Shown here: one piece after another, positions 99 through 62,290 of the stretch
Position numbering within the stretch: the stretch's first letter is position 1
Layout: every line of letters starts with the position of its first letter
Assembly (NCBI GenBank): GCA_032622095.1
Contig: CP136066.1
Coordinates: forward strand, 203,258,978 to 203,322,977
DNA from: Siphonodentalium dalli
Lineage: Eukaryota > Mollusca > Scaphopoda > Gadilida > Siphonodentaliidae
DNA length: 64,000 bases
Direction: 5' to 3'
Program-made: the position numbers and the translations under genes
The notes under the pieces: model-generated
What the model saw: the letters and a program-made list of their open reading frames with translations, nothing else
What the model was told of the DNA's origin: nothing
Databases searched by the model: none

Positions 99-498
99 TT
101 AACCCTTTACCCAACAGAAGGGCCCTGTGCCAATGCATTATCTTATATATGCGAGTCGACCATAGGTCGCCTCGCATATATAAGAGAATGCATTGGCTTA
201 ACACATTAAAAATTATAAAATTGTTAAAGAATGTAAGAAAAAATGGTAAAAAGTGTTAAAAAAAGATTTTTTTTAGGCCAGTGCATTCTCTTATATATGC
301 GAGGCGACCTATGGTCGACTCGCATATATAAGAGAATGCATTGGAACAGGGCATAACTGTAACTATCACAATGTGGTCAAGGAGCCGGTTCCAATGATAT
401 CCATATTTGTATGGTTCTATTGAGACAGACGGAAGATATTTTAGGCTGTTGAAGCTTTATTTGGCCGGTTTTGGCCGGTTTGTTGGGTAAAGGGTTAA
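99..498 (+). mobile_element. MITE family A, copy 1 (TTAA-flanked)
   Basis: A non-autonomous element bounded by TTAA at 99-102 and 495-498. The ends are inverted: CCCTTTACCCAACA on the left and TGTTGGGTAAAGGG on the right, extending imperfectly to about 22 bp (…GGCC). Inside are two 67-bp hairpins (130-196 and 278-344) in opposite orientation, an AT-rich spacer with AATTGTTAAAGAATGTAAG, and a unique right arm with repeated GGCCGGTTTT. TTAA targets and CCC-starting termini are typical of piggyBac-type elements. No transposase is present, so mobilisation in trans is inferred. Confidence 0.85.
130..196. repeat. 67-bp hairpin module (reference copy)
   Basis: Arms CCAATGCATT(C/A)TCTTATATA…TATATAAGAGAATGCATTGG pair almost perfectly around a tiny ATA loop, with one preserved mismatch near the loop (TCGACC against GGTCGC). 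Other full or near-full copies: 278-344, 2417-2483, 2705-2771, 10322-10374 (loop deleted), 10571-10637, 13014-13080, 13214-13280, 16798-16864, 16935-17001, 19449-19515, 19744-19810, 22082-22148, 38520-38586, 38644-38710, 38958-39024, 39054-39120, 39762-39828, 40049-40115, 56980-57046, 61739-61805 and 61875-61932 (shortened). Half copies lie at 1690-1716, 9855-9883, 19377-19399, 19861-19914 and 21525-21540. It is open in several frames but is not protein-coding. Confidence 0.95.
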
Positions 499-1550
499 TG
501 TGCTGTATACTCAGATATGGATAACGCTATTTAGTATATTGATATACAGACAGACAGAAGTTCCAAAATATATATTAGATAAAGATAAAAGTGTTTGTGA
601 TTGTGTAAACCCTTGCGGTGGTCTAATCACAGATGGACACCGCGGGTTAGTATGATATCAGTGCTGGTAATTGTGGAGGCGCTAAACCCTTACTCTGGTC
701 TTGATTGGATGCTTCTCATTAGGAATCACTCGCGATAATTGTAAACTTCTTTGTCACAGATGCACTCGATTTGTCTTAGGAGACGAAGCGTGTAACTATT
801 CTGGCGAGGTTTGTACACACTACGGTTTAGCCATACCAATCGGCTAATTTACGGCGCAACAACCTCAGAAATCTATGAGCCAGACAACGAGGAAACCCAG
901 CAGAAAAATCACTCACGGCCCCGTTCGCTGGTGGTATATCAATAACTCCCTCAACAGTAGTCCCATAGTTGTCAACAACCACATAATTTTTAAACATAAT
1001 TATCGAGAGAGGTATGCTCAGCTAAACTGCTAAACCAGCTCCCGAAGCTAGCGTTAATGTAAAAACATTACCATTGGCGTGTCCATTGCGTGAGAACCGA
1101 GCCTTCTAATTGGGAGGCAAACACATGTGATGTAAATTTTGCATCAAGACAAGAAGCTTTTCAGAGAAAACAGTTGATTTGTGGCATTCTTCTAGTCAGC
1201 TAGTGCTGAAATCAATGTGTGATATTCTCTGTAAAACATGTTTTGGGTATGGTTAGGACCGGGCATAAAACAAACATTTCATCACTTTGGCTGTGACTTC
1301 TGCCAGAATTATGTTACGAGGATATATTTATGAATTTTTGGTGCAAAAATAATATTTATCGCCCGTGTTAATCTATAGCATGTATGTGCAACGTATAGTA
1401 AAATGCAACACATTAAACGTTTGATTATATACGCATTGTTTTCGGCTGGTGCATGAACATTGGAATCCATTTTAACAGTGGTTTATTTGATGTAAACATG
1501 TTTTATTTCCAATCCCGATAGCATATATGTATATAACATTAAAAGTTATA
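499..1550. other. Gene-free stretch, nothing recognised
   Basis: About 1 kb of AT-rich intergenic DNA. There is no ORF with a recognisable domain, no clear tandem array and no transposon end that I can pair. Confidence 0.5.
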
Positions 1551-1551
1551 C

Positions 1552-1686
1552 ATTATCCGAATTAACTCTCCTAAATTACAATTTCTTTGGCTTCGAGGGT
1601 AAAACATATTTGATTCGAGTCGAGGAACCCACCAATCAAAGCTCAGAGTTATCAGATATCGATTTTTGAAATTTGTTATCCCTGTG
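1552..1686 (+). mobile_element. Fragment of the AGGTACTCAATCCG-type TTAA element
   Basis: The sequence TTTGGCTTCGAGGGTAAAAC…ATTTGATTCGAGTCGAGGAA…CAAAGCTCAGAGTTATCAGA closely matches the interior of the elements at 21542-22015 and 63718-64000. The right half is missing: it is cut at about 1686 and followed directly by a family-C fragment. A diverged remnant. Confidence 0.6.
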
Positions 1687-1689
1687 GGA

Positions 1690-1766
1690 GAGTCGCATTT
1701 ATAAGATAATACATTGGCACAGGGTTTTCGCAAAAAATCAGGAAGCTCCAGTCGTGAAAGGGTTAA
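1690..1766 (+). mobile_element. MITE family C, right-end fragment
   Basis: Half of a degenerate hairpin module (…GATAATACATTGG) followed by CACAGGGTTTTCGC, then TCAGGAAGCTCCAGTCGTGA and AAAGGG-TTAA (1763-1766). This is the right terminus of the family seen at 9805 and 38907. The left end is missing. Confidence 0.65.
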
Positions 1767-2360
1767 TTTGTGTTCATAAGATTGAACACTTGTTACATTG
1801 ACACAGAAGTCCTCGATGTACTCCGTTATTCATGATTTTGATGCCACAGCTCCAGCCTCGGCCGATTCAAGCAAGAGAGAATATTATCTTATCGTTTAAA
1901 ATTGCAATGAACCGATAGTTCAGAAGACACAAAATTGACACAATTTAAACGGCAAAAATAAACGATACAATTTCTTTAACTCTTTACCAGCCAATCTTTG
2001 GCGAACGTCGATATATAAACATGTGAACATCCGCGGCAAGATGTACGAAGCTTGCGTACTACGTCATATAAACATGTAGTCAAGCAATACACACGCGAAT
2101 TATTGTGCAGAACAGTGATACACTCAGATGTTCACTGATATTCAATGTTGAGGAAATTCCACCGACACATTCTATTGGAGACACAAAACTCGCAAAGGCT
2201 ATACCACAGAAGAAAAAAATTGGCATCAGTTTAAAAATTTGTTAAACACTGTGTTTGTGTCAAAACTGGACAGCAGATATAATTGTGTAGCACAAAGATT
2301 TAAGGCTGCTGTGAGATTTTTAACATGGTAGATTTTACGAGTTTGTGTTGCTAATAGAAC
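1767..2360. other. Gene-free stretch with one short duplicated block
   Basis: No gene. Around 2128-2168 a block including TATTCAATGTTGAGGAAATT and CCACCGAC recurs as a direct repeat at 2837-2876, so it flanks the family-B element between them. The same block is found inverted near 6395-6430. Confidence 0.45.
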
Positions 2361-2788
2361 ATATGTGACCCGCCATATCAAATCCAGTCGGAAGTCGGGA
2401 TTTTTTTTACCCTGTGCCAATGCATTCTCTTATATATGCTAGTCGACCATAGGTCGGCTCGCATATATAAGAGAATGCATTGGCCTAATAATTTTTTACA
2501 ATTTTAATAATTTGTTCTTGTATTCTTTAACAATTTTATAATTTAACCCATACAGAGCCCCAGACAAACATGAGCAGACGACACTCTTCTATATGCTTCT
2601 ATATATGTGTGGGGCTCCCTGCAGGGTAATGGATGTTTTTTTATTTTATGTCCTAAAAATTGTAAGAAACATTTATTTAAAAAACATGATAACAAATTGT
2701 TAGGCCAATGCATTCTCTTATATATGCGAGGCGACCTATGGTCGACTCGCATATATAAGAGAATGCATTGGCACAGGGTAAAAAAATA
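2361..2788 (+). mobile_element. MITE family B, copy 1 (right terminus lost)
   Basis: Left terminus GTGACCCGCCATATCAAATC followed by CAGTCGGAAGTCGGGA, a T run and ACCCTGTG, then a hairpin (2417-2483), a spacer, a second stem-loop made of GGGGCTCC/GGAGCCCC around 2560-2630, and the inverted hairpin (2705-2771). The expected right inverted repeat (ATCCCGACTT…GGCGGGTCAC) is absent. Short matching AATAGAACATA tracts lie on both sides. Related full copies: 10267-10693, 19397-19860 and 39712-40171. Confidence 0.75.
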
Positions 2789-3540
2789 TCTCAAATAGAA
2801 CATACCTCGTCAACTAACTATAATATACTCACATATTCAGTCATATTCAATGTTGAGAAAATTCCACCGACCCCGGCATATTTCATATGTCATTTCTACA
2901 CAATTTTGTTTAAGATCAAATTTAAAACATATTGTGTAGAATGTATACATATTTGTTCTAAGGTGACGTTCACACATAGCCGGTGAAGCCGTTACCCGGC
3001 GAACCCGTTAGCCGGCGAAGGTTGGGCAGAGTGTTTACACATCGCCGGCGAAGATACGCATATATTCATGTGTCTCCTTTACTTGTTAATAGTTTTCGTT
3101 TTAGTTCTCACTGAACTGCAATATGATATTGCTGTACACCTGTAAACATCTAGCCGCTTCCTGTTAGAGATATGGTTGGGCAGTATAGTGAAATGAAACA
3201 TTTTAGAAATGGAAATGCCGAAATTATTAATATCCAACTCAAACTTTCAGGTATTGCTATTGGTAATTTTATAGATATTTAAAAAACATTGTTAATGGTT
3301 TGTTTTGGTTCACAAACTTCACATACAGCCTGTGAAGTGAGTGTCGCACCAAAAGCATGGCCATTGTCAGTTTTGAGATCTGTTCGTCGCATACATCTAC
3401 AAATTGGTGTCTAATCATTCGGATTGGATTTTATATTATATATATAAGTTTCAACATCGCGAATCAAATGTGACACATTTTCCGTTTGCACATTATACAA
3501 TAAAATATGTTTTTCATTTTACTCGGGCGTTCACCATGTC
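2789..3540. other. Gene-free stretch; dispersed block and CCGGCGAA-rich patch
   Basis: The block at about 2837-2945 (…CATTTCTACACAATTTTGTT…) has an inverted partner at about 6345-6430. From 2975 to 3050 the motif CCGGCGAA/CCGGTGAA recurs several times, and similar motifs reappear near 4470-4550. No gene is visible. Confidence 0.45.
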
Positions 3541-3990
3541 CATGTATATAGGGCCGAGGCGATGGGGGTGTCTCATCCCAACTTTAATCAAAATATTCAA
3601 AAGCTGGAAATTTCATACCTGACACGGCAATAGTTGGACATTTGACATCAGCAATATGATGAAATTGTTCTCGTAGTTTTATTTTCAACAATTTGTTATT
3701 GGTGATTTCTTTAGGCAACATTTGCTTATTTTTTGACCAAATTGTTGGACTGAAATGACCATCAGTTGGAAATGATCCAACCTTATTAGAGGTGCGTCAA
3801 GTTTGGAAAATGTCCAACAATTGGAAATCTTAAGGCTGGATGCTAGGATTTTGCAATTTTCAGGGTTCAGATTAAAAAACATTCTCACACCTGGCCATAA
3901 CCACGGTCGGTCGATAAATTCCAAAGATGAACAGTCCCACACCTCCACATCAGGCCCTCTAGACCCGTCCCTGTGTCAATATGTCCACGG
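3541..3990 (+). mobile_element. Diverged relative of the hAT-type element at 42320
   Basis: Shares several blocks with 42320-43336 in the same order: GGGGGTGTCTCA, GGAAATTTCATACCTG, a GTTGG-AAAT/TTCCAAC-rich core, then AGGCTGGATGCTAGGATTTT and CTCACACC. It ends CCCTCTAGACCCGTCCCTG, like that element's CCCTCTAGCCACATCCCTG. The left terminus is eroded and no clean target duplication is visible, so the exact bounds are approximate. Confidence 0.6.
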
Positions 3991-4808
3991 CGCACTCAGA
4001 TTTTAGATTATTGAACTAATTGTCCATTAAGTTTGAATCCACAGAAACGTGCCATCCCATTTCTTCCATATATATATATGGACATACATGTACATGAATT
4101 AATTCCCTCGAATGCGCAACAAATGTACCATGCACATGCAGAGTACGTGTACCATCATCGGTTAGTATTTATAATAATAGCTTATAACCAAGGTGCGTGA
4201 CCATCGACCTGACAGCTGATTAGAGACAATCAAACTGGCACACTGACCAATATATACACAGGTGAAAAGCGGGCTGGTCTATCAGCGATTGCACAATAAT
4301 ATTGTTCGAGTTAATTGTTGAAAGGAAATCACCCATGACGGCATGACCCCAGATAAACATCTAACTTAACCGCAGAGCGAATTAGAATCCATACGACAAT
4401 CAGGTGCTTGTACTAAAGCATTTTTAACCAAAAGTTGAAAACCGTATAGCTGAGTATCCGGATAGCCGTAATTCTTATCCGGCGAAGTATAAACACTCTA
4501 TTGTTATCGCTGCCGGCTATACAGCGAATGCGATCTTCGCCGGGTAATGTATAAACACCCCCTAAGAGTGTATGCCATGATTTGTTGAGAGGGTAATTAT
4601 TTTCTAACATAGGGAATTATATTGACATTGAAACTAACGGCGATGTTGCTGTTGGATCACATTGCATGAAGGTTGGCGAAGGTAGACACTCGTTTCCTAC
4701 CTCGGACCCAACCTAAGCTGAACATGCGCACTGTGCCCATTGGTTATCGCTTTCGAATTTTTTATTTCAGGTGTAATAGTCACATAGAACGTACAGTCAA
4801 TGAAAAGG
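3991..4808. other. Gene-free stretch, nothing recognised
   Basis: Intergenic DNA with scattered CCGGCGAAG-like motifs (4480-4550). No gene or pairable transposon end. Confidence 0.4.
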
Positions 4809-4811
4809 TCC

Positions 4812-5741: not shown

Positions 5742-5763
5742 GGGGGGGGGGGGGGGGGGGGGG
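5742..5763 (+). repeat. Poly-G tract (about 22 G)
   Basis: An uninterrupted G homopolymer immediately after GATTCTG. Length may be unreliable because such runs are prone to sequencing error. Confidence 0.9.
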
Positions 5764-10266: not shown

Positions 10267-10693
10267 ATATGTGAACCGCCATATCAAATCCAGTCGTAAG
10301 TCGGGATTTTTTTACCCTGTGCCAATGCATTCTCTTATATATACGAGTCGACCATATATAAGAGAATGCATTGGCCTAACAATTTTTTATCATTTTTTTT
10401 AAATAAATGTTTCTTACAATTTTTAGGACATAAAATAAAAAACACCCATTAACCTGCAGGGAGCCCCACACATATATATAAGCATATAGAAGAGTGTCGT
10501 CTGGGGCTCTGTATGGGTGAAATTATAAAATTGTTAAAGAATACAAGAAAAAATTATTAAAATTGTTAGGCCAATGCATTCTCTTATATATGCGAGGCGA
10601 CCTATGGTCGACTCGCATATATAAGAGAATGCATTGGCACAGGGTAAAAAAAATCCCGACTTACGACTGGATTTGATATGGCGGGCCACATAT
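10267..10693 (+). mobile_element. MITE family B, copy 2
   Basis: Long inverted termini: GTGAACCGCCATATCAAATC on the left against GATTTGATATGGCGGGCCAC on the right, continuing through the CAGTCGTAAGTCGGGATTTT arms. Inside are a shortened hairpin (10322-10374), a GGGGCTCC stem-loop and an inverted hairpin (10571-10637). ACATATGTG flanks both ends, so the exact AT-rich target duplication cannot be resolved. Confidence 0.85.
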
Positions 10694-12982: not shown

Positions 12983-13434
12983 TTAACCCTTTACCCAGCA
13001 GAACGGCCCTGTACCAATGCATTCTCTTATATATGCGAGTCGACCATATGTCGCCTCGCATATATAAGAGAATGCATTGGCTTAACACATATTAAAAATG
13101 ATAAAATTGTCAAAGAATGTAGAAAAATATTATCAAAATTGTTAAAAAATGTAAGAACAAATTCTAAAATTGTTAAAGAATGTAAGAAAAATGGTAAAAA
13201 GCGTTTTTTTAGGCCAATGCATTCTCTTATATATGCGAGGCGACCTGTGGTCGACTCGCATATATAAGAGAATGCATTGGCACAGGGCATAACTGTAACC
13301 ATCACAATGTGGTCAATGAACCGGTTCCAATGATATCCATATTTGTATGGTGTTATTGAGACAGACCGAAGATATTTTAGGCTGTTGAAGCTTTATTTGG
13401 GCGTTTTTGGCCGGTTTGTTGGGTAAAGGGTTAA
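12983..13434 (+). mobile_element. MITE family A, copy 2
   Basis: TTAA at 12983-12986 and 13431-13434 with CCCTTTACCCAGCA and TGTTGGGTAAAGGG ends. Hairpins at 13014-13080 and 13214-13280. It preserves the uninterrupted junction GCATTGGC-TTAA-CACATATT (13073-13092), which serves as the empty site for the nested insertion at 21542-22015. Confidence 0.9.
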
Positions 13435-13601
13435 AATATGACTCGAGCCATAATTAAATTTATATCATATTATTAACTTTGGTTTCAAGATAACCTGTTA
13501 ACTCTAATTAATTACTTTTCTATATATTATCGATATTATAATATATAGATCGTTGTTAGTGCCGGGAATCTATTGAAATTGGCGCACAATCATCGACCCC
13601 T

Positions 13602-13952
13602 TTAAATGGGGACTGTACACCAAATCCGGCAATTTATGAGACCATATCCTGTTATGCTCAACAGAACATATGTAACACATGAATGAATTTGAGCCATGGA
13701 TTAGTGCAAAATACACATATTTGCTCTATGAACAATGCTAACAGCATGGTAATTATAATGAAAATGAATAAATAGCTGGAGTCATAAATTCATTTTCTTT
13801 ATAATTTCATGTTGTTTGCATCGTTCATAGAGCACATTAGTGTATTTTGCACTAATCCATGGCTCAAATTCATTCATTTGTTACAATATTCTGCTGAGTA
13901 TAAAAGTAGATGGTCCATAAATGGCCAGATTTGGTGTACAATACCCCTTTAA
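13602..13952. mobile_element. TTAA palindromic MITE, GTACACCAAATC family, copy 1
   Basis: TTAA at 13602-13605 and 13949-13952. Ends GGGGACTGTACACCAAATCC and GATTTGGTGTACAATACCCC are inverted. The interior is a large imperfect hairpin (GAATTTGAGCCATGGATTAG…CTAATCCATGGCTCAAATTC). The uninterrupted TTGTTACAATATTCTG at about 13879-13894 is the empty site matching the family-B insertion in the second copy at 39415-40217. Confidence 0.85.
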
Positions 13953-16766: not shown

Positions 16767-17155
16767 TTAACCCTTTACCCAACAGAACGACACTGTGCCA
16801 ATGCATTCTCTTATATATGCGAGTCGACCATAGGTCGCCTCGCATATATAAGAGAATGCATTGGCTTAACACATTAAAAATTATAAAATTGTTAAAGAAT
16901 GTAAGAAAAAATGGTAAAAAGTGTTTTTTTTAGGCCAATGCATTCTCTTATATATGCGAGGCGAGCTATGGTCGATTCGCATATATAAGAGAATGCATTG
17001 GCACAGGGCATAACTGTAACTATCACAATGTGGTCAAGGAGCCGGTTCCAATGATATCAATATTTGTATGGTTCTATTGAGACAGACCGAAGATATTTTA
17101 GGCTGTTGAAGCTTTATTTGGCCGGTTTTGGCCGTTTTGTTGGGTAAAGGGTTAA
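16767..17155 (+). mobile_element. MITE family A, copy 3
   Basis: TTAA at 16767-16770 and 17152-17155, CCCTTTACCCAACA ends, hairpins at 16798-16864 and 16935-17001. Very close to copy 1 in both internal arms. Confidence 0.9.
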
Positions 17156-19327: not shown

Positions 19328-19970
19328 TTGAACCTTTCATGACTGGAGCTTCCTGATTTTTTTAGAAAGCCCTGTGCCAATGCATTCTCTTATATATGAC
19401 CCGCCATATCAAATCCAGTCGGAAGTCGGGATTTTTTTTTACCCTGTGCCAATGCATTCTCTTATATATGCGAGTCGACCATAGGTCGCCTCGCGTATAT
19501 AAGAGAATGCATTGGCTTAACAATTTTTTATCATGTTTTTTAAATAAATGTTTCTTACAATTTTTAGGACATAAAATAAAATAACATCCATTACCCTGCA
19601 GGGAGCCCCACACATATATAGAAGCACATAGAAGATAGAAGAATGTCGTCTGCTCATGTTTGTCTGGGGCTCTGTATGGGTGAAATTATAAAATTGTTAA
19701 AGAATACAAGAACAAATTACTAAAATTGTAAAAAATTGTTAGTTCAATGCATTCTCTTATATATGCGAGACGACCTATAGTCGACTCGCATATATAAGAG
19801 AATGCATTGGCACAGGGTAAAACAAATCCCGACTTCCGACTGGATTTGATATGGCGGGTCACATATATGCGAGTCGACCATAGGTCGCCTCGCATATATA
19901 AGAGAATGCATTGGCCTAACACATTTTATATTATTTATTATAATTGTTAAAAATTGTAAGAAAAAATGAT
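19328..19970 (+). mobile_element. MITE family C copy interrupted by family B copy 3
   Basis: 19328-19399 is a family-C left end (CCTTTCATGACTGGAGCTTC, CTGATTTTTTTAG, CCCTGTG and half a hairpin). The hairpin stem is broken inside TTATATAT by a family-B element (about 19397-19860; GACCCGCCATATC…GATATGGCGGGTCAC, hairpins at 19449-19515 and 19744-19810). The rest of the stem, ATGCGAGTCGACCATAGGTC onward, resumes at about 19867 and runs to 19914, followed by the AT-rich spacer. The C copy's right terminus is missing. Confidence 0.8.
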
Positions 19971-20051
19971 TAGCCAGAGTAGAGATTCATGGCATGATGT
20001 TTGTGCATACGAACTATGACGCAGAATTTAATTTCATCATTATCTTGCAAG

Positions 20052-21479: not shown

Positions 21480-22187
21480 TCAAGCAATTTTTATAATATT
21501 TTTCTACATTCTTTGACAATTTTATAAGAGAATGCATTGGCTTAAAGGTACTCAATCCGTAAAGAGGGTCCCCATCTCAACAGATTCCAACAACAACAAT
21601 CCGATCAGGGGGTCCTATATTACTATTTCTTTGGCTTTGGGGGTAAACAATATTTGATTCGAGTCGATGATTCAAACAAAGCTCAGAGTTATTAGATATT
21701 GATTTTTGAAATTTGTTATGTTCTCGAGATGAGTACTAATAATTGCCGTCAATTTCGTATCCTGCTCGAGATTTATACACCAAAACTCTATTCAAACAGA
21801 CAAGGATGGATAACTCTAAAATCAAGTGGTAATAATTGACTACGAACTGGGCCAGAAAGAATTCCCGATAATGAAAAATAATAGATTTCTAAAATCGATA
21901 TCTAACAAATCTGAGCTTTGATGGGTGACTTCCTCGACTCGAATCAAATATTTTTGACCCCCGAAGCCATTGAAATAGTAATTGAGATGAGTTTTATCGG
22001 ATTGAGTACCTTTAACACATATTAAAAATGATAAAATTGTCAAAGAATGTAGAAAAATATTATTATATTATATTGTTTAGGCCAATGCATTCTCTTATAT
22101 ATGCGAGGCGACCTATGGTCGACTCGCATATATAAGAGAATGCATTGGCACAGGGCATAACTGTAACTATCACAATATGGTCAATGT
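21480..22187 (+). mobile_element. MITE family A fragment split by a nested TTAA element
   Basis: 21525-21541 (half hairpin …GCATTGGC) and 22012-22187 (CACATATTAAAAATGATAAA…, hairpin 22082-22148, CATAACTGTAACTATCACAA) are parts of one family-A element interrupted at its internal TTAA. Both outer termini are missing. The leftmost ~35 bases (21488-21523) are the reverse complement of the spacer at 22028-22062, so the copy has also been rearranged. Confidence 0.75.
21542..22015 (+). mobile_element. TTAA MITE, AGGTACTCAATCCG family, complete nested copy
   Basis: TTAA at 21542-21545 and 22012-22015; ends AGGTACTCAATCCG and CGGATTGAGTACCT are perfect inverted repeats. The two halves are internally related in inverted orientation (GATTCGAGTCGA near 21658; TCGACTCGAATC near 21933). 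It lies in the TTAA of a family-A element, as the intact copy at 13073-13092 shows. Confidence 0.9.
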
Positions 22188-26686: not shown

Positions 26687-26949
26687 CTACAGCTCGCAAA
26701 GGTAGCGATGAGTTCTACCAGGCATAACAATATCACATTCATAGTCATTCATTGATTTTACTGCGCCACCTGGTGCGTGGGAGAGAGTCATGCAGTGTTG
26801 ACCACCATCGTTGTCGCCAGGCAACCCAGATATGCTGTTAGATCCAACCCATCCATTCGGCAGCCATATTGCATCGCCATTCCTGTTTATATATGCTCCC
26901 TCATTTGCTTCATCATTGCCATCCACGTAGTGATACATGGCAGCGGGGC
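26687..26949 (-). CDS. PAN/C-type lectin gene, exon 3 (C-terminal half of lectin domain, stop)
   Basis: Last coding exon of a predicted 235-residue secreted protein. The acceptor is CTATTTGACAG|GC (exon starts at 26949) in phase 1, and it joins exon 2 to give ...[11 protein letters not shown]. It encodes residues 150-235: [10 protein letters not shown] around 175-182, then the conserved C-terminal lectin cysteines C201 (GGQHCMTL), C220 (NDYECD) and C233 (RYLCEL-stop). The MND before C220 corresponds to the WND calcium-site motif of C-type lectin folds. A clear EPN or QPD sugar-specificity triplet is not visible, so calcium-dependent sugar binding is uncertain. No canonical AATAAA was found close to the stop. 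Exon boundaries are my reading; no transcript was available. Confidence 0.8.
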
Positions 26950-27499
26950 CTGTCAAATAGAGAGACATGTGGTCAGTGCTAACGCTGGCAAATACCAATA
27001 TTTTTAGAAAATGGCCAAAAAAAAATTCATTTGGCCAAAGTTTTTTTCAGCCCAAAATCGAAAATCTGATTCAAAAACCCCAATTGATTTTGTAACGGGA
27101 GCAACATGAGAATCAATTTATAGTATGATCAACTGCTAATTGATTATGTGATACAGCTTAATGGGAAACAAAAGTCACTCATGGCAGTACACTATCAAAC
27201 AATGTAATAAAACAGTAATGCGGATTAACACTTATGAATCATTTGTCTGTCATAAGGCAGTTTCAGAATCAGTAACCATGCACTTGCTATAGAGAAAGGG
27301 CGTCATTTACAGCCCCCAGTAAAATTAGAAGATAGAAAGTGTGGGTTTTGCTGTGATGATGTCGTATAAGATGAAACACATTTCCTTATGGAATGCACTG
27401 CATATTCACAACTACGAAGAGAACTTTTCGAATCAATGATTTTGTCAATAAATCATTAGCTAAGGCTGATTTGGGGTGGCGTTTATCGTCAAGTATTGA

Positions 27500-31897: not shown

Positions 31898-32870
31898 TTG
31901 GCGTAACGGAGCAGCAAGTGTGTTACAAGCCCCTGTGTTTCTGCCGTTTGCAAAAAGATTGCATGTATTTTATCGGTTTGTTCTTCGATTATCTGTTATT
32001 GGTTAATGGTACAGACTGCAGATGGAAAATTATGTAATAAATACAGAGACTGTGCGACCATTTAGTCATCTGGTCAGGGCTAGTTACAAAGTATGATATT
32101 GTGATATATCTCACTATTTGTATATCGTATTTTCAGTGCGCAAATTATTTCATTGAACAAACTTATCCCCTATAAACCAGACTTTCCCAATACATGTCGA
32201 AGTATAATCCCATGTATAATGGGCAGATCATTAATAGCAAACACCATTGGCAAATATATCCGCATGGTTTAATGTTGCGACATTAACCACAGTCCTATTC
32301 AATTCTACCGTGTATATACTTTCGCTAATCACGCAAATCGAGTTCAACCATGCCTCTAGCATTGTTTGTAACTTGGAAACTCTCAAACACACATCGATAA
32401 AAAGCTACAGTAATTTTCGATAGGGGGGATTCGAATTTGGGAGTTGTTGCTGTCTGACACGTTTACCCGTCGGGCTGCATGCTATGTGGTTCGGCGGGGT
32501 CTCCATTTAGATACTGCTATACGTTTGTTATGCTAGACGGATTGTATATGTATATATATATTGTTGCTGCTGTTACATATGTTGATCCATGTACACATTA
32601 AAATGACTAATCCCCCCGACTCTGATCTGTCTTCTTGAAAATCTACAACCCGGAAATCAGCTCTACTACAAAAGTTACAGAATCTGCTATCTTTGTCGCA
32701 TATATACTGCGGTTAACTAGTGGTTGTGGATGCTGAACCTTATTTCACAAGTTTAGTTAATTAGCGTTTTGATATTTCCTGGTGCTTTCACAATTGACCC
32801 CCGGGAAAACGAAGCCTTCTATATCTTTTTCCGATGCGATTCTGATCACCATACATGAACTATAGTTTAC

Positions 32871-33150
32871 CTGAGTGATCTTCACGTCTATAGACTCCGC
32901 TTGATGTATACAAAGAGTCAAGAACGCCGCCGGACATATAACATTCACTATCGTCAACGTTGAAGGAGAACTCCAGACAAGATAGACGTTCGCATAATCT
33001 CGAGCAGTCAATTTCAGAATCGGCCTTCTTCACTTGCGTTGGTTGAAAGTCACATCCTGTTGGACTCTGATCATCGTGTTTCGTGAAACGTACTCCATGA
33101 ACACATGGCATGAATACAGACACCAAACTCACTAGGTTTACGTACAACAT
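32871..33150 (-). CDS. PAN/C-type lectin gene, exon 1 (signal peptide and PAN/apple-like domain)
   Basis: First coding exon of a secreted or surface protein. Residues 1-19 (MLYVNLVSLVSVFMPCVHG) are a good signal peptide. Residues about 33-88 form a PAN/apple-like module with cysteines C33, C49, C53, C58 and C70 and the core IDCSRLCERLSCLEFSF, followed by ECYMSGG; the family pattern is C…C-x3-C-x4-C-x-(A/E)-F-x-(F)…C. The exon ends CACTCAG|GTAAAC at 32871 in phase 1, matching exon 2. PAN modules bind proteins or sugars. With the C-type lectin-like domain encoded by exons 2-3, this suggests an extracellular recognition or matrix role, perhaps innate immune, but no specific function can be named. 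The ATG lies inside the last unit of a 41-bp minisatellite (33123-33286). Confidence 0.8.
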
Positions 33151-33286
33151 CGCTATACTGAAACCAAACTTACTAAGTGTACGTATATCATCGCTGGACT
33201 GAAACCAAACGCACTAGGTGTACGTATATCATCGCTATACTGAAACCAAACTCACTAGGTGTACGTACATCATCGCTAGACTCAAC
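33123..33286 (-). repeat. 41-bp minisatellite overlapping the lectin start codon
   Basis: Four units starting at 33123, 33164, 33205 and 33246. Read on the minus strand, each unit holds ATG-(T/A)T(A/G)-TAC-GTA… and codes M-(L/I/M)-Y-V-(N/H)-L-V-(S/R)-L-V-S-V. The unit nearest the gene is the real start; the three upstream units read the same peptide but stop soon after (TAG or TGA). Each unit also contains TTTCAG, a possible 3' splice site. The upstream units are potential uORFs if transcription starts beyond 33286. Confidence 0.85.
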
Positions 33287-38209: not shown

Positions 38210-38890
38210 TTGAAGGGGTCACTCTCACAAAAAAAAACGCTGAAGGGTACACAGGGTTTGAAAATATGCTGAAGGGTACACAGGATTTGTGATAAGCACG
38301 AACACCGTTACTTAAATTGTGTTTATGAAAGTCTGGCATCCATTAGCAGTTTGTTTTCAGTACATTTTAACCCTTTACTCAACAAACCGGTCAAAACCGG
38401 CCAAATAAAGCTTCAACAGCCTAAAATATCTTTGGTCTGTCTCAATAAAACCATACACATATGGATATCATTGGAACCGGCTCCTTGACCACATTGTGAT
38501 AGTTACAGTTAGCCCTGTGCCAATGCATTCTCTTATATATGCGAGTCGACCATAGGTCGCCTCGCATATATAAGAGAATGCATTGGCCTAAACAAAAAAA
38601 TTCTTACATTCTTTAACAATTTTATAATTTTTAATGTGTTAAGCCAATGCATTCTCTTATATATGCGAGGCGACCTATGGTCGACTCGCATATATAAGAG
38701 AATGCATTGGCACAGGGCCCTTCTGTTGGGTAAAGGGTTAATATTCATTGGAACGTAAACAATTATTCTCTAACAGAAATCATGGCAGATACGAAACCTG
38801 AACGTCTTTAGAACGAAAATTTAAAACTTGTGAACCCTTCAGCACTTTTTTTGGTGACAGTGACCCCTTCAGCGTTAGTTTTGGTTCTAA
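38210..38890. mobile_element. Foldback element carrying a nested family-A MITE
   Basis: Left arm TGAAGGGGTCACTCTCACAA, AAAAAACGCTGAAGGGTACA, CAGG; right arm (about 38832-38882) is the complement (TGAACCCTTCAGCACTTTTTT, GGTGACAGTGACCCCTTCAG). GCTGAAGGGTACACAGG is repeated twice in the left arm. Family-A copy 5 sits in its centre at a TTAA. Confidence 0.7.
38367..38741 (-). mobile_element. MITE family A, copy in reverse orientation
   Basis: TTAA at 38367-38370 and 38738-38741; ends CCCTTTACTCAACA and TGTTGGGTAAAGGG. Hairpins at 38520-38586 and 38644-38710. The long GGCCGG-containing arm is on the left, so the element is inverted relative to copy 1. Confidence 0.9.
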
Positions 38891-38906: not shown

Positions 38907-39169
38907 TTATCCCTTTCATGACGGGAACTGCGCTGGTGCAGCATTACATATCATGTGTCAGTGCATTCTCTTATACATGCGTGTCTCCCATAGGGAGCCT
39001 CGCATATATAAGAGAATGCGCTGGATTAATAGGTCAAGGTAAATATTTTTAGGCCAATGTATTCTCTTATATATGCGAGGCGCCCTATGGGAGACTCCCA
39101 TATATAAGAGAATGCATTGGCACAGGGTTTTCGCAAAATTTCAGGAAGCTCTAGTCATTGAAGGGTTAA
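38907..39169 (+). mobile_element. MITE family C, complete copy with altered hairpins
   Basis: Left TTAT (38907-38910; a mutated TTAA) then CCCTTTCATGACGGGAACTG; right TTCAGGAAGCTCTAGTCATT-GAAGGG-TTAA (39166-39169). The hairpins at 38958-39024 and 39054-39120 have TCTCCC-ATA-GGGAGC and GCGCCC-TAT-GGGAGA near the loop, instead of the usual TCGACC-ATA-GGTCGC. Confidence 0.75.
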
Positions 39170-39276
39170 ACTACTCTTATGGAGCCCCTCACAGACGTCA
39201 GCAGACGACACTCGGCAATACAAGCTGCCATCTGCTCGTGGCTCCCTACGGGAATCTCCGGTCATGGAAGGGTTAA
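39170..39276 (+). mobile_element. Remnant with GGGGCTCC stem and second CCATGGAAGGGTTAA end
   Basis: GGAGCCCCTCACAGACGTCA, GCAGACGACACTCGG resembles the internal stem of family B (GAGCCCCAGACAAACATGAG, CAGACGACACTC). It ends GTGGCTCCCTACGGG then GGTCATGGAAGGG-TTAA (39273-39276). A further TTAA-ended relative abutting the family-C copy. Confidence 0.55.
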
Positions 39277-39414: not shown

Positions 39415-40217
39415 TTAAAGGGGGGATGTATAATAACGCTAAATCTGGCCATGGGACTATTTCCTATTATACGCAACAGAATATATGTAACAAATGAATG
39501 AATTTGAGCCATAGATTGGTGCAAAATACACTCATTTACTTTATGAACAATGTAAAACAACATGGTAATTATAATGAAAATGAGTTTATGGATGGAGTTA
39601 TAAACTCATTTTCATTATAATTACCATGTTGTTTACATCGTTCATATAGAGCGAATGAGTGTATTTTTGCACTAATCTATGGCTCAAATTCATTAATTTG
39701 TTGCATATATGTGACCCGCCATATCAAATCCAGTCGTAAGTCGGGATTTTTTTACCCTGTGCCAATGCATTCTCTTATATATGCGAGTCGACCATAGGTC
39801 GCCTCGCATATATAAGAGAATGCATTGGCCTAACAATTTTTTATAATCTTTTTTAAATAAACGTTTCTTACAATTTTTAGGACATAAAATAAAAAACATC
39901 CATTACCCTGCAGGGAGCCCCACACATATATAGAAGCATATAGAAGAGTGTCGTCTGCTCATGTTTGTCTGGGGCTCTGTTTGGGTGAAATTATAAAATT
40001 GTTAAAGAATACAAGAAAAAATTATTAAAATTGTAAAAAATTGTTAGGCCAATGCATTCTCTTATATATGCGAGGTGACCTATGGTCGACTCGCATATAT
40101 AAGAGAATGCATTGGCACAGGATAAAACAAATCCCGACTTACGACTGGATTTGATATGGCGGGTCACATATTCTGTTGAGTATAAATGGCAGGATTTAGT
40201 GTACAGTACCCCTTTAT
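39415..40217. mobile_element. GTACACCAAATC-family palindrome, copy 2, split by family B
   Basis: Left TTAA at 39415-39418 with AAGGGGGGATGTATAATAAC; right GATTTAGTGTACAGTACCCC-TTTAT at 40192-40217. The internal hairpin (GAATTTGAGCCATAGATTGG…CTAATCTATGGCTCAAATTC) is intact. A family-B element is inserted in TTGTTGCATAT…ATATTCTGTTGAG; copy 1 (about 13879-13894) shows the uninterrupted site. Confidence 0.85.
39712..40171. mobile_element. MITE family B, copy 4
   Basis: GTGACCCGCCATATCAAATC…CAGTCGTAAGTCGGGATTTT on the left and AAATCCCGACTTACGACTGG…GATTTGATATGGCGGGTCAC on the right. Hairpins at 39762-39828 and 40049-40115, and a GGGGCTCC stem-loop at about 39915-39985. ATAT lies on both sides; the duplicated target is 2-4 bp of AT. 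Confidence 0.9.
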
Positions 40218-43860: not shown

Positions 43861-44666
43861 TCAACTCTGTAAGTACATCGGTGTCATAGACATCGAGCCC
43901 ATGGTGTTGGGCTTCTGTACACCGTAATAGTTATAGTTTTGTCCAACCGGTGACATATTGTCATGTGACATGTTCGTTTGGCCCATGGCCAGCTGTCCTG
44001 CTCTGAAGCCAAGTATGTCAGTCACGGAATGAGATGAGGGCCATCGCATCATGCATGGATGAACACCTGACATCATGGTTTTATTGTCAATGGGAATGCT
44101 CGCCTGTTGAGCGGTGTGAATTTGTGGCGCGGAGACACTACATGCCATGGGAGAACCGGTGTATGAATACGGGTAAAACTGGTTATACAATGGCGTCGTG
44201 TTGAAACTTTTGTTCTCACACTGTGGACTCGTGTTCTGACTGCCTCCTCCGCCTGCTCCTCCTCCTCCTCCTCCGCCAATTTTATTCCTTAGAATCCGAC
44301 TAATAGAACTAACAGACGGGACGTTGTATTTATCACACACGCCATCGGCTAGCAGTTTATCTCTTATCTCCCAAGCAAAGATTCCGGGATCTCTTTCTTT
44401 ATATACTTTGATATGTTTTACCACATTCGGGGTAGTGACCCTCGGTTTACTTCCTCCGATTGCTCCGGGCAGAATTGAGCCAGTCTCGTTGTATCTCGCG
44501 AGAATTTTACTCACACAACCATGTGACACCCGTAGCTGTCTGCTTATATCACATGGTCGAACTCCCAGTTGGGCGAGTTCGACTATCCTCAGTCGTATGG
44601 CGTTTGGTAATGGACGTCCGTTGACGAACACTCCTCCCAGTTGGTTCACTTCTCCATAGGATTGCT
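43861..44666 (-). CDS. Pax1/9: Pax1/9 paired-box transcription factor, main exon (paired domain to stop)
   Basis: Encodes residues 3-269 of a nuclear DNA-binding regulator. The paired domain is complete (about residues 4-131: [20 protein letters not shown]…[12 protein letters not shown]) and closest to the Pax1/Pax9 class as I know it ([36 protein letters not shown]). A glycine run (about 132-143) follows. The octapeptide HSVTDILG is at 214-221, where Pax1/9 proteins have a Groucho-binding eh1-like motif. There is no homeodomain, as expected for this class. The acceptor is CTTTTTTCAG|AGCAATCC (exon starts at 44666), giving (M)EQSYGEV. The frame has no break and ends MYLQS-stop. In deuterostomes Pax1/9 is a pharyngeal endoderm gene. 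The end is somewhat short relative to vertebrate proteins; further 3' coding exons are not needed because a stop is present. Confidence 0.95.
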
Positions 44667-45052
44667 CTGAAAAAAGAAAAGTGTTTACATATTAGGCTAG
44701 CTTTTGAGAGTTTTTAGTCATAAGACGCCTACGAAACCCAACAATCCATAGTCTGATATAGAACCAGATGGTCAAATTATATATTCCTTATATGGTAATA
44801 TATAACCAGAATACATATATAGCAAACGGACGTCTGTTGAAAAGCATAAGTTGGAAAGCGGGTACCTTAAACAAAAATGTGCTAAGAAGGAAGAAAATAC
44901 TAACACGAAATGCTTACAATGTAAACAAGTGTTGTTAATAATGTAAGATGTATATGGATTATGATAACGTCACATGACTACATGTAAATGGGCCAATCAC
45001 ATTAATTACTAGCATATTAAATACCACTATTATCCCTTTCTATATTAAACAC

Positions 45053-55701: not shown

Positions 55702-55713
55702 GTTCATTTATCG

Positions 55714-55872: not shown

Positions 55873-55975
55873 TGCAAACATGTGAACTTATAACAAAGTC
55901 AATGTCAATGAAATGTTACTTTCGCCTATCGGATTTTCACTACCATTTGTATTACACAGCCATCGCTAAAACCTA

Positions 55976-56113: not shown

Positions 56114-56124
56114 AACGCTCATAC

Positions 56125-56290: not shown

Positions 56291-56979
56291 CATGGGTACT
56301 ATTATGTAATCAGTATGTCCGTTAACATTTTTGGTTTCCGGCCGGTAACTCTAGTTTTGATTATTTTATCTGAACGCAAATTGGTATGTGTTTTTCTCAG
56401 CTGAAAATACACGTCAAGTTCGAATATGAGTTCAGTCTCGTCGAAAATCTACGGGATAATAAAGATATACATTCAATGTATAGTCAATTTTGGACTAGGT
56501 TCAGTCCAATAATTTTCACATGAGTTACTGCCCTTATTCGACTTAGAAGTTGAACGCATTTGGCATTGGAATTAGGGGTATATCAGATATTCTTTGTAAG
56601 CTCAACTTGTTATTGTAGTTTGTGGTAGAACAATTCGAAATGACGAACGGGCATATTTCACCGTGCCTTAGTTGTGGTATATATGAAGCGTATTGTTGTG
56701 TCAAATCCCATGAGTAAATTTTTAAATGGACCGAAGGTACTCGCAGTGGGCAAATTGGCAAAAATTATAAAGTCTGTAAAAACACCAGCCAGAATATGGA
56801 AAAATAGATAAACATTTTTCTTACATGTTTATATTCATTATTGATATATCTCCCATAACGAATATATGCAACAAAGCTGTCAGACTGATTTATCATCGCT
56901 AATCATCGCTAATCATCGCTAATCGTCTATAGTAAGTTCAAATGTTTTAGTTTTTTAATCTCAGTAAAAAATTGTTAGG
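56291..56979. other. Gene-free stretch
   Basis: A short AATCATCGCT triplication at about 56896-56927. Nothing else recognised. Confidence 0.4.
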
Positions 56980-57046
56980 CCAATGCATTCTCTTATATAT
57001 GCGAGGCGACCTATGGTCGACTCGCATATATAAGAGAATGCATTGG
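56980..57046. repeat. Solitary hairpin module
   Basis: A full 67-bp hairpin in the right-hand orientation (GCGAGGCGACC-TAT-GGTCGACTCGC), preceded by AAAAAATTGTTAGG and followed by CACAGGGTAAAT. It is the right half of a family-B-like core without its partner or termini. Confidence 0.85.
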
Positions 57047-58180
57047 CACAGGGTAAATCATAATATTTTTTAATTCTTTGACCATTTCCCATGTTTACTG
57101 CCAAGTTTTAATTAAATCTGGTATCTTGTTTGACTAATTTAACTAATTTAAATTGGTAATTCAACTATAACCGTATTGTTTACAGAACGATGGTTTTGAC
57201 ATACGAAATCTCATTATTGGAGAGTTATTAATAATGACAAAAATTCAATATTTTTGTTTATGTACTTGTTGAAGATAATTGTTCTACAGACTGGTATGTT
57301 ATTTACCATGAACCCATTGCGAGTGCCTCAAAATCGGTTTTTAAATTTCAAAATGAACGGATTAATTTGCCACAGTTCTTGTATATCACATTATGGGTTG
57401 AATAATAGTGGTTTATAATCAAATAACAGCACTTTCGCATAAACAGCATCGTGGTTTATAGATAAAATAACAGCACTGTCTCAGAAGTAGTCGTTTTGTA
57501 CGTGTCTTTATTTTGTGCATGTATGCATAATATAATTCCATTGTGCAATTCAGAAATAATATGATTATGTCTATAGTTTCGATCTTCACATCGAGTGGTG
57601 GATATTTCAGTCTATATAATGTTTACTGCAAGTAGGATAACGTTCGACTTTGTCTAAAAACGACACATTTTACACTAAATATTGGTCAAAGACTCAAAGT
57701 TGGAAAAAGAATGTATCAAAACAAAGCGAACCTACTTTGTGATTGAAATTTCCACTACTGTTGTTTCGGGCATGGAATTTCGAACTATTTTAAATTTTGA
57801 CCAAACTTATATAACAACCGGGCAAACAGTTTTCTTTCAGATTAGTATGAGGGTGCGGGTGTCAGGGTGTGTGGTCGAGAGGACCCAAAAGCAAATTTTG
57901 CCGCAGCTCTACAAAAACATTTTGGCCTTAAAACTTAAGAGATAATGTAATGTAACATCAAAACTGCCTTCAGTCAGTCAGTATATAGATTGTTTCTTGA
58001 TGTAAAATTACTAAATACCCGAGTTTCTGTCATTCTAGGTCACTCCGAATATGAATTGCATAGACACATTGCATAAGCGATCACTTTTATGTCAAACAAA
58101 CTATCACATCTGAATCGCTCATTGAAATAGGTAGGAAACAGACAAGAAGAGGGGAAAATTTAATATTCTTCGGAAAATAT
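57047..58180. other. Gene-free stretch, nothing recognised
   Basis: About 1.1 kb without a supported gene or repeat end. Confidence 0.4.
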
Positions 58181-58350
58181 TTGATTTCTTGTTTCTAGGG
58201 GTGTCGAAAAATGATCGGAAAAAACTTGCCACAAAGGAAAACAATTTTGATTGAGGGTCCTAAAAAACCTAAAAATTGCCAAAGGTAAAACAAAAGTATC
58301 AGATGTGTCTGCATATGTTTTCCAACACCCCCCCCCCCCCCCCCCCCCCG
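58181..58350 (+). mobile_element. Diverged relative of the poly-G-ended elements
   Basis: GGGGTGTCGAAAAATGATCG-GAAAAAACTTGCC and TGTTTTCCAACACCCCCCCC… resemble the interior and right end of 36998-37540. The C run is about 22 long. No 7-bp duplication could be paired. Confidence 0.5.
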
Positions 58351-58399
58351 CAAACAACATCACAATTTCTAGGAAATTCGTTTTTAATTCACACTAGGA

Positions 58400-59280
58400 C
58401 TGCTCTTCCCAAAACAAACACATCAGAAACATCTGGTGTTAGAAATATTTCAGAAATTTTCTAAGTGCCGAATATCCAACGTCCAACTAACTTCACGTGA
58501 ATATCCTTTGAATATCCAACGTCCAACGGCTTATTTGTGCCCTTGTCCACACTTAATCTGCTTAGAATGGCATCATTATGAGTCGATAATATGACTAAAT
58601 CCTCCCAATTTCAGCACATTATCTACGCAAAAAGAGATAATTTAAGCAGATTATCTACCTAAAACTAGTTCTATTATTAGTAGATAATGTGTTTGTTTTC
58701 GGGAGAAGATGCAGGTTTTCGATATTGAAAACGCATGACGCGGAGCATGTTTGCACTTGTAGATTGGCATGTGCAGTTCTCCTATGGGAATGACTATAGT
58801 TACCAAATTTCAGCTTAATCGGCTCGTCAGTACAGCCTGCATGCGCTCTCTAAAGTTACAAGTCGTATAAGTGAACATTTTCCAGCTATGGTCTGGAAAA
58901 CAGGAAAATCGCGGAATTTCGGATGAAGTTTCAGTGGGAGAGAACGAATTGGACTTATGGCGCACCCTTAATGCATAAAACGAATAATAACAAAATTTGA
59001 ATATCCAACGTCCAACTAACTTCACGCGAATGTCCGTTGAATATCCAACGTCCAACTAACTTCACACACCTACTGTTCGAAATATAGCCACATACATGGA
59101 ATCTCCCGATTCATTGAAAATAATTCATGGAAAAATTCATTTCCTAGTGACAGAAGCTCCAGTTGGCAAGTTCCCCTGAGTCATATAATTACTATTACAC
59201 CCCCCCCCCCCCCCTGCTGAGTCATATAATTACTATTACACCCCGAAATATATTCAAAAAGTTCAGGAAAGAAATACGCA
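58400..59280 (+). repeat. Dispersed repeat with GAATATCCAACGTCCAACTA motifs
   Basis: GAATATCCAACGTCCAAC occurs at about 58471, 58508, 58999 and 59039, as two pairs about 500 bases apart and each followed by TAACTTCAC in three cases. ACATCAGAAACATCTGGTGT and TTCCTAGTGACAGAAGCTCC match the repeat at 51240-52380. CTGAGTCATATAATTACTAT plus TACACCCC is duplicated around a poly-C run at 59176-59243. Confidence 0.55.
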
Positions 59281-59696
59281 ATCTCTAAACACCCAAAAAG
59301 ACCTGTTGCCACGCCACAGCCTCAATTTATAATTGAAATACAGAGATATTAGAGACTGTCATAAAGGTACGTATATAACGTTACTTTCATGTATGTTTCT
59401 TCAAAGACGCATTCCAAATGACACGGAATGTGATACGAAGTTTTCGAAAAGAAAAATAAATTGGGTTTCTGGAAATCGGCCGTAGTATTAGTTATACAAA
59501 AAATAATAAGTTTAACACATTAACATAGGTGTTTGATGTAAGTTGTTATATTCAAGCGAATTGTTTATACACGTGGTAATGCCATAACGTTACTCTCAGA
59601 CCCTTTGTCCACGTAATATTGGAGAGGAAGTAATTTACGGGAGAAATCTGGTACAAAGAACGCACTCTACACAACAGAGGTAAAGAGAACACTTCT
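59281..59696. other. Gene-free stretch, nothing recognised
   Basis: No gene, repeat end or array recognised. Confidence 0.35.
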
Positions 59697-59697
59697 C

Positions 59698-59968
59698 TTG
59701 TAATGTCTTAATCAACGCTCCTCAGTCAATCTCCGGCTGACCATATATCGGTATAATGGAATAAAAACGCCCATTGCATGCATGGTGCATAGCTCTCGAT
59801 CAGAGGCCTTCATCTGTGCAACAAATGAATTTCAATGTAATGTCTTCATCACGCTACCCAATCCCAATCTCCGGCTGACCATATAATGGTATTATGGGGA
59901 AATAACACTCAATGCATGGTGCATATCTTTCAGCCAGTGACCTTCTTCGGTGCAACAGATGAATTTAT
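59698..59968 (+). repeat. Two-unit direct repeat (~135 bp)
   Basis: GTAATGTCTTAATCAACGCT…CAATCTCCGGCTGACCATAT…CATGGTGCATA…GTGCAACAAATGAATTT is repeated from about 59837 with moderate divergence. Confidence 0.75.
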
Positions 59969-61549
59969 TTTCTTTTTTTCAATTCAATTCTTTAATCTCA
60001 GTAAATATGGAATGTGAGATACGCAAATTTAATACTATTACATGACAAAAGCACATTCAACAGGTACATAATTATAAAATAGTATATGTAATATTAATAC
60101 ATCATATTAATAATAATAATTGAAGGCACATCCACCAGAATGTATGCCATTAAAGGGACTCAAAAATCATCGCCACCATGTTGTTGTTGTTGAAATCAGC
60201 TATTCACTGCCTGTTCCTAACGCTTCTGTAAACTGCATGCATGGTTTATCTCCCCTGATTGCTATAAATAGATTGGGGGTATACCTCATTGTCTGTGTTT
60301 TGTCAGTGACAGCAAGCATGGTTTCAGGATATCGTTAGAAAAAGACGATATATTGAGCTTAAATTGGCAAAATGCGATCAAATAAGACGTTTTCGTCAGC
60401 GCGAAGATGCCGAAAAATCCGCAATGGATTTTGGGATGTGAATGTCAGTTGTCACACTCACAGTGGATTTCCATGCAAATCTGCGGAGCAAAATTCTGAA
60501 AGTTTAATAATACGGAGAACTTTGCACATACATGCATACTTCTCAGTCTTCGAGTGTGGCTTGATGTGGTACTATAAGAAACAGCAGGTATTTATCTGGT
60601 GGGTCCGCTTTGTAAATTATAAAATTTTGCAATAAATATATTTTTGATAATTTTTTTCTGGAATTACATCACTTGACCTACATATTAATTTGTCAGATTT
60701 GAAATATCAATATTGAATATAAAATTCAAAAATAAATACACCAACATCTATACAAGTTCCAATCGGACCTGCCAGATAAATACCTGTTGTTTTCAATACC
60801 ACATCAAGTCACACTCAGAAGTATGCGCAACTCCAGTTCAGTCATGTACGTAGTGCGTATCCTTCCTTGCTGGAAGCAGCAATCTGCGAAAGCGGTCATG
60901 TTGACTTAAAGAACAAATACAGAAAAGAACAAATACAGACGAGATGATGGATCAGTCACAAGCATGCTGTTTGAGGTAAAGCTACCACCCCTCGAAGAAT
61001 GAAGGAAAGAACAGTGACTGGTTCAATACCACAAAATAGTCAAGGGGTTGGTTTCAGCCCTGCCTAAAGCCTGATTTATCAGAACACGAGAAGAAAGACA
61101 CAAGGGAAATACAGCCAACAAAATTTTAGGACTGTGTCAGTCAAAATCCGGTGGAGAAGGAGGTGTGTTCAACAACACAGAATCGTTCCAACTTCTGCGT
61201 ACCAGCAGCTCACAATTATATATATATGAACACTCCTTCTTTGTTAAAACAACTGTGGAATTGAACTACCTCAGTACCTGGAACAGTCGGTTGTTGATGT
61301 CGGTGATATTGACGGTTTTCTATCTGCTCTGCGAGGGGAACAACAGTATGGAGTGTTTTCAACAATGCTAACAAGGAGCTATTGCTTAAATATTTAAAAA
61401 TTATGCTTGTTTATCATATATAATAAATTATTTTTCAATTATTTCGCTTGCTGCTTATATTTATACTCCAAAATAATTTTGGATGGCTCAAACAACAACA
61501 TTATCATTGCATATATTAACTACTATATGGGAGATTAATCTAACATTTA
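59969..61549. other. Gene-free stretch with an inverted repeat and possible old coding remnants
   Basis: CATACTTCTCAGTCTTCGAGTG…AGCAGGTATTTATCTGG (about 60534-60600) has an inverted partner at about 60775-60830. Short ORFs on the plus strand (60120-60338, 60372-60635, 61165-61371) show no domain I recognise. Some of this may be an old transposon or pseudogene. Confidence 0.3.
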
Positions 61550-62290
61550 ATGGCTGATTACGCTTAAACGTAACTCCATTATGCTTAACCCTTTACCCAA
61601 CAAACCGGCCAAAACCGGCCAAATAAAGATTCAACAGCCTAAAATATCTTCGGTCTGTCTCAATAAAACCATACAAATATGGATATCATTGGAACCGGCT
61701 CATTGACCACATTGTGATGGTTACAGTCATGCCCTGTGCCAATGCATTCTCTTATATATGCGAGTCGACCATAGGTCGCCTCGCATATATAAGAGAATGC
61801 ATTGGCCTAAATTAACACTTTTTACCATTTTTTCTTACATTCTTTAACAATTTTATAATTTTTAATGTGTTAAGCCAATGCATTCTCTTATATATGCATA
61901 GGTCGACTCGCATATATAAGAGAATGCATTGGCACAGGGCCGTTCTGTTGGGTAAAGGGTTAAGCATAATTGGTTTGTATTGCCTTGCAACGTTATATGT
62001 AATGGTAGGCCTCCATGTATCTAACTTAGTAAGGTTTAATGTTCTGGGCGGATGGTAAGATTACTAGCATCGTAATTGACTGCATCAATTTCAGCTTCAG
62101 GGGAGTTTTTTCAATTCTATTACGCTTTACTTTAACGTAAATGCATTATGTGTGATCGTAAATGAATTACGCATAAGCATAATGTAATACGCTTAAGTAT
62201 GGTATAATGGAAATCTAAATTACACTTAGGCATTGCGCATTAAGCTTAAATTTATGCTTAAGCATAATGAATTACACTTAAGCGTGATTA
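61550..62290. repeat. Block of ATTACGCTTAAGCATAATG palindromic motifs
   Basis: Variants of TTACGCTTAAGCATAATG, each centred on CTTAAG or similar, occur at about 61556-61588 and repeatedly from 62110 to 62290. A family-A MITE is inserted at one of these TTAA centres. Confidence 0.6.
61585..61963 (-). mobile_element. MITE family A, reverse copy in a palindromic target
   Basis: TTAA at 61585-61588 and 61960-61963, CCCTTTACCCAACA ends. Hairpins at 61739-61805 and 61875-61932 (the second lacks GCGAGGCGACC). Excision would restore ATTATGC-TTAA-GCATAAT. Confidence 0.9.

Follow-up and report, generated by a model that had tools for sequence, protein, structure and literature searches.

A paired hairpin core within miniature inverted-repeat transposable element families with different termini in the scaphopod Siphonodentalium dalli

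The hairpin core and its carriers in the window

A 64,000-bp stretch of the genome of the scaphopod mollusk Siphonodentalium dalli (contig CP136066.1 of assembly GCA_032622095.1, positions 203,258,978 to 203,322,977 of the forward strand), which is called the window below, contains many copies of a hairpin core located inside several families of miniature inverted-repeat transposable elements (MITEs). The search of the window with nhmmer, in which one 80-bp hairpin unit served as the query and nonoverlapping matches were counted, found 26 hairpin copies or fragments. The unit begins with CCCTGTG, continues with a palindrome containing one fixed mismatch and a 3-nt loop, and ends with CCTAA or CTTAA. 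The folding energy of the unit was −55.1 kcal/mol versus −16.2 (SD 2.8) for shuffled sequences (z = −13.7), and none of 200 shuffles folded as well. Because the fixed mismatch gives the palindrome a direction, the inverted pairing of hairpins becomes visible, and 20 of the 26 hairpins form ten inverted pairs, five in family A, four in family B and one in family C, which are bordered by CCCTGTG...CACAGGG. The other six are the single or broken hairpins of the copies A6, B5, C1, C2, and C3, the last of which is present as two pieces. These data bear out the sequence-only reading of the window, which described a near-perfect hairpin occurring more than 20 times, mostly as inverted pairs between these borders, and located within all three families.

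The paired hairpins are separated by an AT-rich repeat, which is short in family A and long in family C. A 19-mer from this spacer occurs 19 times in the window at up to three mismatches, while 0.03 occurrences would be expected by chance. The AT-rich spacer that had been described is a repeat, in which most A copies have a single 19-mer, the second A copy three, and C2 five; in family B the spacer contains a second hairpin module, named H2. In the whole genome (2.23 Gb in nine contigs) the 20-mer at the core border has 152,002 exact copies and the spacer 19-mer 47,487; here and below genome counts are exact matches, and for these two, the A ends, the B ends, and the junction of E with the core the reversed-pattern control gave 0 every time. 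A 22-mer of the hairpin had 0 matches in viral and 0 in prokaryotic contigs, and fragments of the elements searched as text in published papers gave no match.

Family A has a TTAA target and CCCTTTACCCAACA ends, and its layout is asymmetric, with the core placed directly after the 20-bp end on one side, while a 142-bp arm intervenes on the other. Its ends occur 11 times in the window (0.44 expected by chance) and, together with TTAA, 91,612 times in the genome, with two ends per element. Five full copies are located in the window: at 99-498 (+ strand; TTAA to TTAA, hairpins 122-201 and 273-352), 12983-13434 (+; hairpins 13006-13085 and 13209-13288), 16767-17155 (+; hairpins 16790-16869 and 16930-17009), 38367-38741 (− strand; hairpins 38512-38591 and 38639-38718), and 61585-61963 (−; hairpins 61731-61810 and 61870-61940, the second with an internal deletion). 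The fragment A6 (21485-22184, +; hairpin 22077-22156) is split at a TTAA of its spacer by another TTAA element with GGTACTCAATCC ends (21546-22013), which has relatives at 1555-1679 and 63720-64000. In the part of A6 at 21485-21545 a reversed spacer is joined directly to a hairpin arm, which is likely a fold-back scar.

Family B has GTGACCCGCC ends, a symmetric layout, and a complete length of about 420-480 bp. The ends occur eight times in the window (0.90 expected by chance) and 18,051 times in the genome, again two per element. The first copy (2365-2786, +; hairpins 2409-2488 and 2700-2779, H2 at 2542-2636) has lost its right terminus, and the second (10271-10689, +; hairpins 10314-10379 and 10566-10645, H2 at 10442-10522) has a shortened first hairpin. 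The third (19396-19862, +; hairpins 19441-19520 and 19739-19818, H2 at 19584-19685) lies inside the hairpin of a C copy. The fourth (39711-40167, +; hairpins 39754-39833 and 40044-40122, H2 at 39896-39990) is inserted at ATAT into a longer palindromic element, D, which is found at 13600-13950 and 39441-40215. B5 (56950-57057, −) is a single hairpin (56975-57054) with a B-type spacer and without termini.

Family C has a TTAA target, ends CCCTTTCATGAC[T/G]GGAGCT, which occur six times in the window (0.10 expected by chance), and two kinds of inner ends, TTAAAGA|CCCTGTG and GCGAAAA|CCCTGTG. The fragment C1 (1676-1766, −) consists of the right terminus and half of a hairpin, and C2 (9805-10150, +; right border approximate) of the left part, a shortened hairpin and a long AT-rich array. 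The third copy (19328-19980, +; right border approximate) has its hairpin interrupted by the third B copy, while the fourth (38907-39169, +; hairpins 38950-39030 and 39049-39128) carries an older form of the hairpin, CTCCC/GGGAG, and a short spacer. The C-type terminus at 39166-39276 (−) adjoins an H2-like module, which replaces the core hairpin, H1. At another locus (L011, 8530-9056) four H2-like modules are arranged in tandem about 150 bp apart.

The fourth family, E, is located outside the window. It has a TTAA target and CCCTTT[G/C]AGTGCCA ends, and complete copies that were read contain one hairpin. The window also contains open reading frames that we take to resemble a Pax1/9 paired-box protein (43861-44691, −), a PAN domain (32860-33213, −), and a C-type lectin (26687-27046, −).

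Conservation of the core and divergence of the termini

To compare the core between families, consensus sequences of the hairpin were built. Two of the 157 hairpins were left out because of short flanks, the remaining 155 were collapsed to 136 by similarity of flanks, and the 99 that spanned the unit with at most three gaps were used. The majority base was identical at every position of the unit, counted from the first border C, in the right hairpins of A (17 copies), in B (38 copies), and in E (10 copies). The consensus of the left A hairpins (19 copies) departed only at position 77, while that of the left C hairpins (three copies) differed at one position and that of the right C hairpins (four copies) at five. 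In the flanks, the consensuses of the six junction types agreed over only 0-2 bp beyond CCCTGTG and at 1-10 of 20 positions over 20 bp, which is no better than chance; the flank consensus of B was blurred by T-runs of varying length. A 9-base match between the B and C termini was taken by eye as chance. The fact that the hairpin consensuses are identical means that a tree of the core cannot mirror a tree of the termini. Intermediate termini, into which the families were expected to grade if they shared a simple common descent, were not seen.

The distribution of the core among termini was examined in 40 loci with 63 arms, which were chosen by the border, blind to the flanks, from the first 5.2 Mb of contig 1, with duplicated loci included. 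The termini of 57 arms could be assigned, 24 to B, 14 to A, 11 to E, and eight to C. Among the others, one C arm was cut by the end of the locus, and five arms in three loci, two of which are copies of one, had no recognized terminus. In 20 spaced 10-kb stretches, 15 of 16 hairpins belonged to A, C, or E, and one was without assignment. At about 820017-920842 of the sequence G000 C1 the core borders recur every 11.2 kb or so, suggesting that a large unit containing these MITEs is repeated in tandem.

One type of terminus was also found in coreless elements. A MITE lacking the core starts with the same 43 bp as E, and the junction of this element has 10,036 exact matches in the genome versus 12,833 for the junction of E with the core. 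As the junction is present at both ends of coreless elements, their number is on the order of half of 10,036. Four of four paired copies of the coreless relative that were read were TTAA-flanked inverted repeats of 214-215 bp including the targets. Coreless A or B elements were not seen among the loci read, with no genome-wide search made for them. The identical consensus of A, B, and E, the chance-level agreement of their termini, and the occurrence of E termini both beside the core and in coreless elements support the proposal of the sequence-only reading that one core is shared by families with different ends, which argues against simple common descent.

The ends and targets point to the transposases that could have mobilized these families. 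TTAA adjoins nearly all listed A, C, and E ends, a few with one base changed, and the three families begin with CCCTTT, which agrees with the CC[C/T]T motif described for piggyBac-type inverted ends in the part of the source consulted (PMC2872659). Hence, A, C, and E appear to be piggyBac-like MITEs, for which the acting transposase would be of this type as judged by ends and targets. The genome contains at least 128 matches to piggyBac transposase, many of them open.

Family B differs in its target. The same four bases, ATAT, ATTT, or AATT (AWWT), were present on both sides in 14 of 18 B copies with both ends, and none of the 18 had a five-, six-, or seven-base match. In this count six loci were left out as second views of duplicated loci, the third B copy of the window was not caught, and in one row (L093) an inner left end was paired with an outer right end. 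Two-base matches were found in 12 copies, close to the shuffled mean of 10.9. The earlier suggestion that B targets AT did not hold in this simple form. Two empty sites, compared by eye, agree with the duplication: the other arm of the D element that hosts the fourth B copy is uninterrupted, and for the third copy the sequence of the host C hairpin is known. AWWT target duplications are described for Sola2 elements in the consulted part of the source (PMC3627910), and on the basis of its target duplication family B may be considered Sola2-like, which falls short of calling it Sola2.

Several longer elements were also noted. Two elements of family B (L091, 568-1101, +; L092, 607-1035, +), each about 1.4 kb long, keep the outer parts of the hairpins. 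Inside they contain an AT repeat, inverted repeats rich in CGG, and an open reading frame in which a Bcl-2 domain was recognized (PF00452, E = 1.7e-13 and 9.1e-11, respectively); since their flanks are identical, they probably represent one event that was later duplicated. Two other loci were rejected as coding elements: L103 proved to be an A element whose spacer contains about 2 kb of other DNA, and L106, located between E ends, has no open reading frame of 100 amino acids.

Two forms of the hairpin differ by changes mirrored across the stem. The form CGACC/GGTCG is present in A, B, and E as well as in some C copies, while older copies have CTCCC/GGGAG. This older form is accompanied by C termini (at 38907-39169 of the window and in L019, L049, and L064) or is found where the termini are lost (L007 and L011). 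In 95 young hairpins there were 72 substitutions with no mirrored pairs, while in four older hairpins there were 33 substitutions with seven mirrored pairs, five of which are the CTCCC difference. These few copies suggest that C is probably the oldest carrier of the core, and that it could be its donor.

Possible origins of the shared core

We propose, with a probability of about 0.6, that the core is a passenger, a module with constant ends that entered several MITE families whose termini are unrelated. The observed part of this proposal is a sharp-ended module that is present in MITEs of two target types and was multiplied together with them. The core, in which CCCTGTG and CACAGGG enclose a hairpin, an AT-rich repeat, and an inverted hairpin, is probably oldest in the piggyBac-like family C and would have passed to at least three further families. 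Of these, A and E are piggyBac-like with a TTAA target, and B is Sola2-like with a 4-bp AWWT target. After acquisition, the whole element would have been multiplied by the transposase reading the outer termini. The capture step is a conjecture: other MITEs may have suffered internal breaks, possibly at palindrome tips, to which core DNA was joined with no target duplication arising from the core itself; this would fit the fact that the B arms meet the core symmetrically and that the coreless E relative is palindromic. A more speculative extension, which we regard as doubtful, is that the hairpin core could be a parasite of transposons, noncoding and with short ends of its own, which is handed between MITEs of different transposase superfamilies and possibly aids the multiplication of its carrier.

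Several observations weigh against acquisition as a passenger. Neither a target duplication of the core nor an empty site for the A, B, or C core was found, and hence insertion as a unit is a supposition. Family E retains only one core border, the other being located within the repeat. No transposase bordered by such ends was found; the ends of A, C, and E were absent from stretches of 1.0 and 0.8 kb beside ten piggyBac lineages, outside of which the ends may lie. The border survey covers only the first 5.2 Mb of one contig, with loci picked by an exact hairpin 20-mer. When the pairing of B flanks was shuffled, the four-base matches had a mean of 7.7 and a maximum of 14, which is explained by the few words that occur at B flanks; because the shuffle reaches 14, the AWWT duplication rests partly on the two empty sites compared by eye.

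The main rival of this proposal, which we consider unlikely but clearly ahead of the other alternatives, is that the core stayed fixed while termini were exchanged through the shared cores, by recombination or by template switching in gap repair, favored by the stalling of synthesis at long hairpins and by the density of copies. The copies are indeed very dense, fold-back scars such as that at 21485-21545 exist, and termini, H1, and H2 are found in varying combinations. However, such an exchange would need joins at the same base in each family, given that the six junction types share the CCCTGTG border, and an element with mixed termini was not noticed among the loci read. It is improbable that gene conversion between copies homogenized the core, in which case identity across families would say little about transfer. 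This explanation would be consistent with the mirrored changes that separate older and younger hairpins, and with the lower divergence of A hairpins: in right A hairpins, with hairpin-selected loci left out, differences from the majority were found at 9 of 1195 hairpin sites versus 118 of 2038 flank sites, and in the five A copies of the window at 12 of 741 versus 19 of 714. Either constraint or conversion between elements could produce such a contrast; the A flank figure is raised by subfamilies, which, as far as can be told, explains the contrast only in part. In B there was little difference (28 of 1853 hairpin versus 26 of 1375 flank sites). These rate comparisons were not built on because the loci were picked by a hairpin 20-mer, A has subfamilies, and singleton pools were of unequal size. 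The absence of mirrored pairs among the 72 young substitutions and the sharing of a variant by two hairpins of one locus in only 2 of 21 loci argue against recent conversion, and conversion would also leave the first entry into unrelated families unexplained.

Even less probable is that the core remains a transposon capable of moving on its own, with repeated jumps into MITEs. Its ends are fixed, and at one locus (L063) the core has no terminus on either side, but its own target duplication was found in none of the 40 loci and 63 arms, a sample of the genome. L063 and L075 contain a B-type core with H2 and lack both termini, with TTTTTTTTA on one side and CCC beside a G-run on the other; they are the best candidates for a free core and are read as truncated, since L063 retains the T-run of B on one side. 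Hence, of the two possibilities raised by the sequence-only reading, a core that is mobile or converting or new termini captured around one core, the arrangement of one core with several termini fits the data, while a recent converting unit is not borne out and a core moving alone was not seen. A source of the core in elements whose ends form single-strand hairpins, such as Helitron2, was considered as a further, purely hypothetical reading. Simple common descent, in which a single ancestral MITE would have retained its core as its termini diverged, is scarcely credible. Although CCCTTT at TTAA starts A, C, and E, this is expected of piggyBac-like ends generally; beyond it the termini agree at the level of chance, the ends and target of B differ, and E termini are found on another interior.

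Comparison with known systems

The passenger core can be compared with several described elements. MADE1 is a mariner-type palindromic MITE, which consists of a near-perfect palindrome of about 80 bp. The hairpin described here resembles it in length and in a fold like that of a small-RNA precursor, while it differs in being a cargo inside other elements, mostly as inverted pairs. Family B shares with Sola2 elements the AT-rich 4-bp AWWT duplication described for them (PMC3627910), while B is noncoding.

The closest precedent, as far as the consulted part of the source shows, is that of the CMITEs of the coral Acropora, which are MITE families with different termini and an interior more conserved between families than the termini (PMC2872659). 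Different termini around one conserved interior are found here as well, and the likeness, compared by description rather than by sequence, extends to the TTAA target and CCCT-like ends. The six coral families all use TTAA, have an interior of about 75 bp, which is not described there as paired hairpins, and were estimated at about 1600 copies (PMC2872659). In contrast, the core described here is a long hairpin pair with a sharp border, family B has other ends and the AWWT target, more than 150,000 arms are present, and one type of terminus is also found coreless. A shared MITE interior that crosses superfamilies was not found in titles or abstract openings of open-access literature. In the corals the shared interior was left unexplained (PMC2872659), and with TTAA elements in every family it could be a piggyBac signal; the presence of the core also in B, with another type of target, weakens this reading of shared interiors. 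More than 150,000 arms, two forms of the hairpin, and a relative lacking the core make it possible to test within one genome how a shared MITE interior originated.

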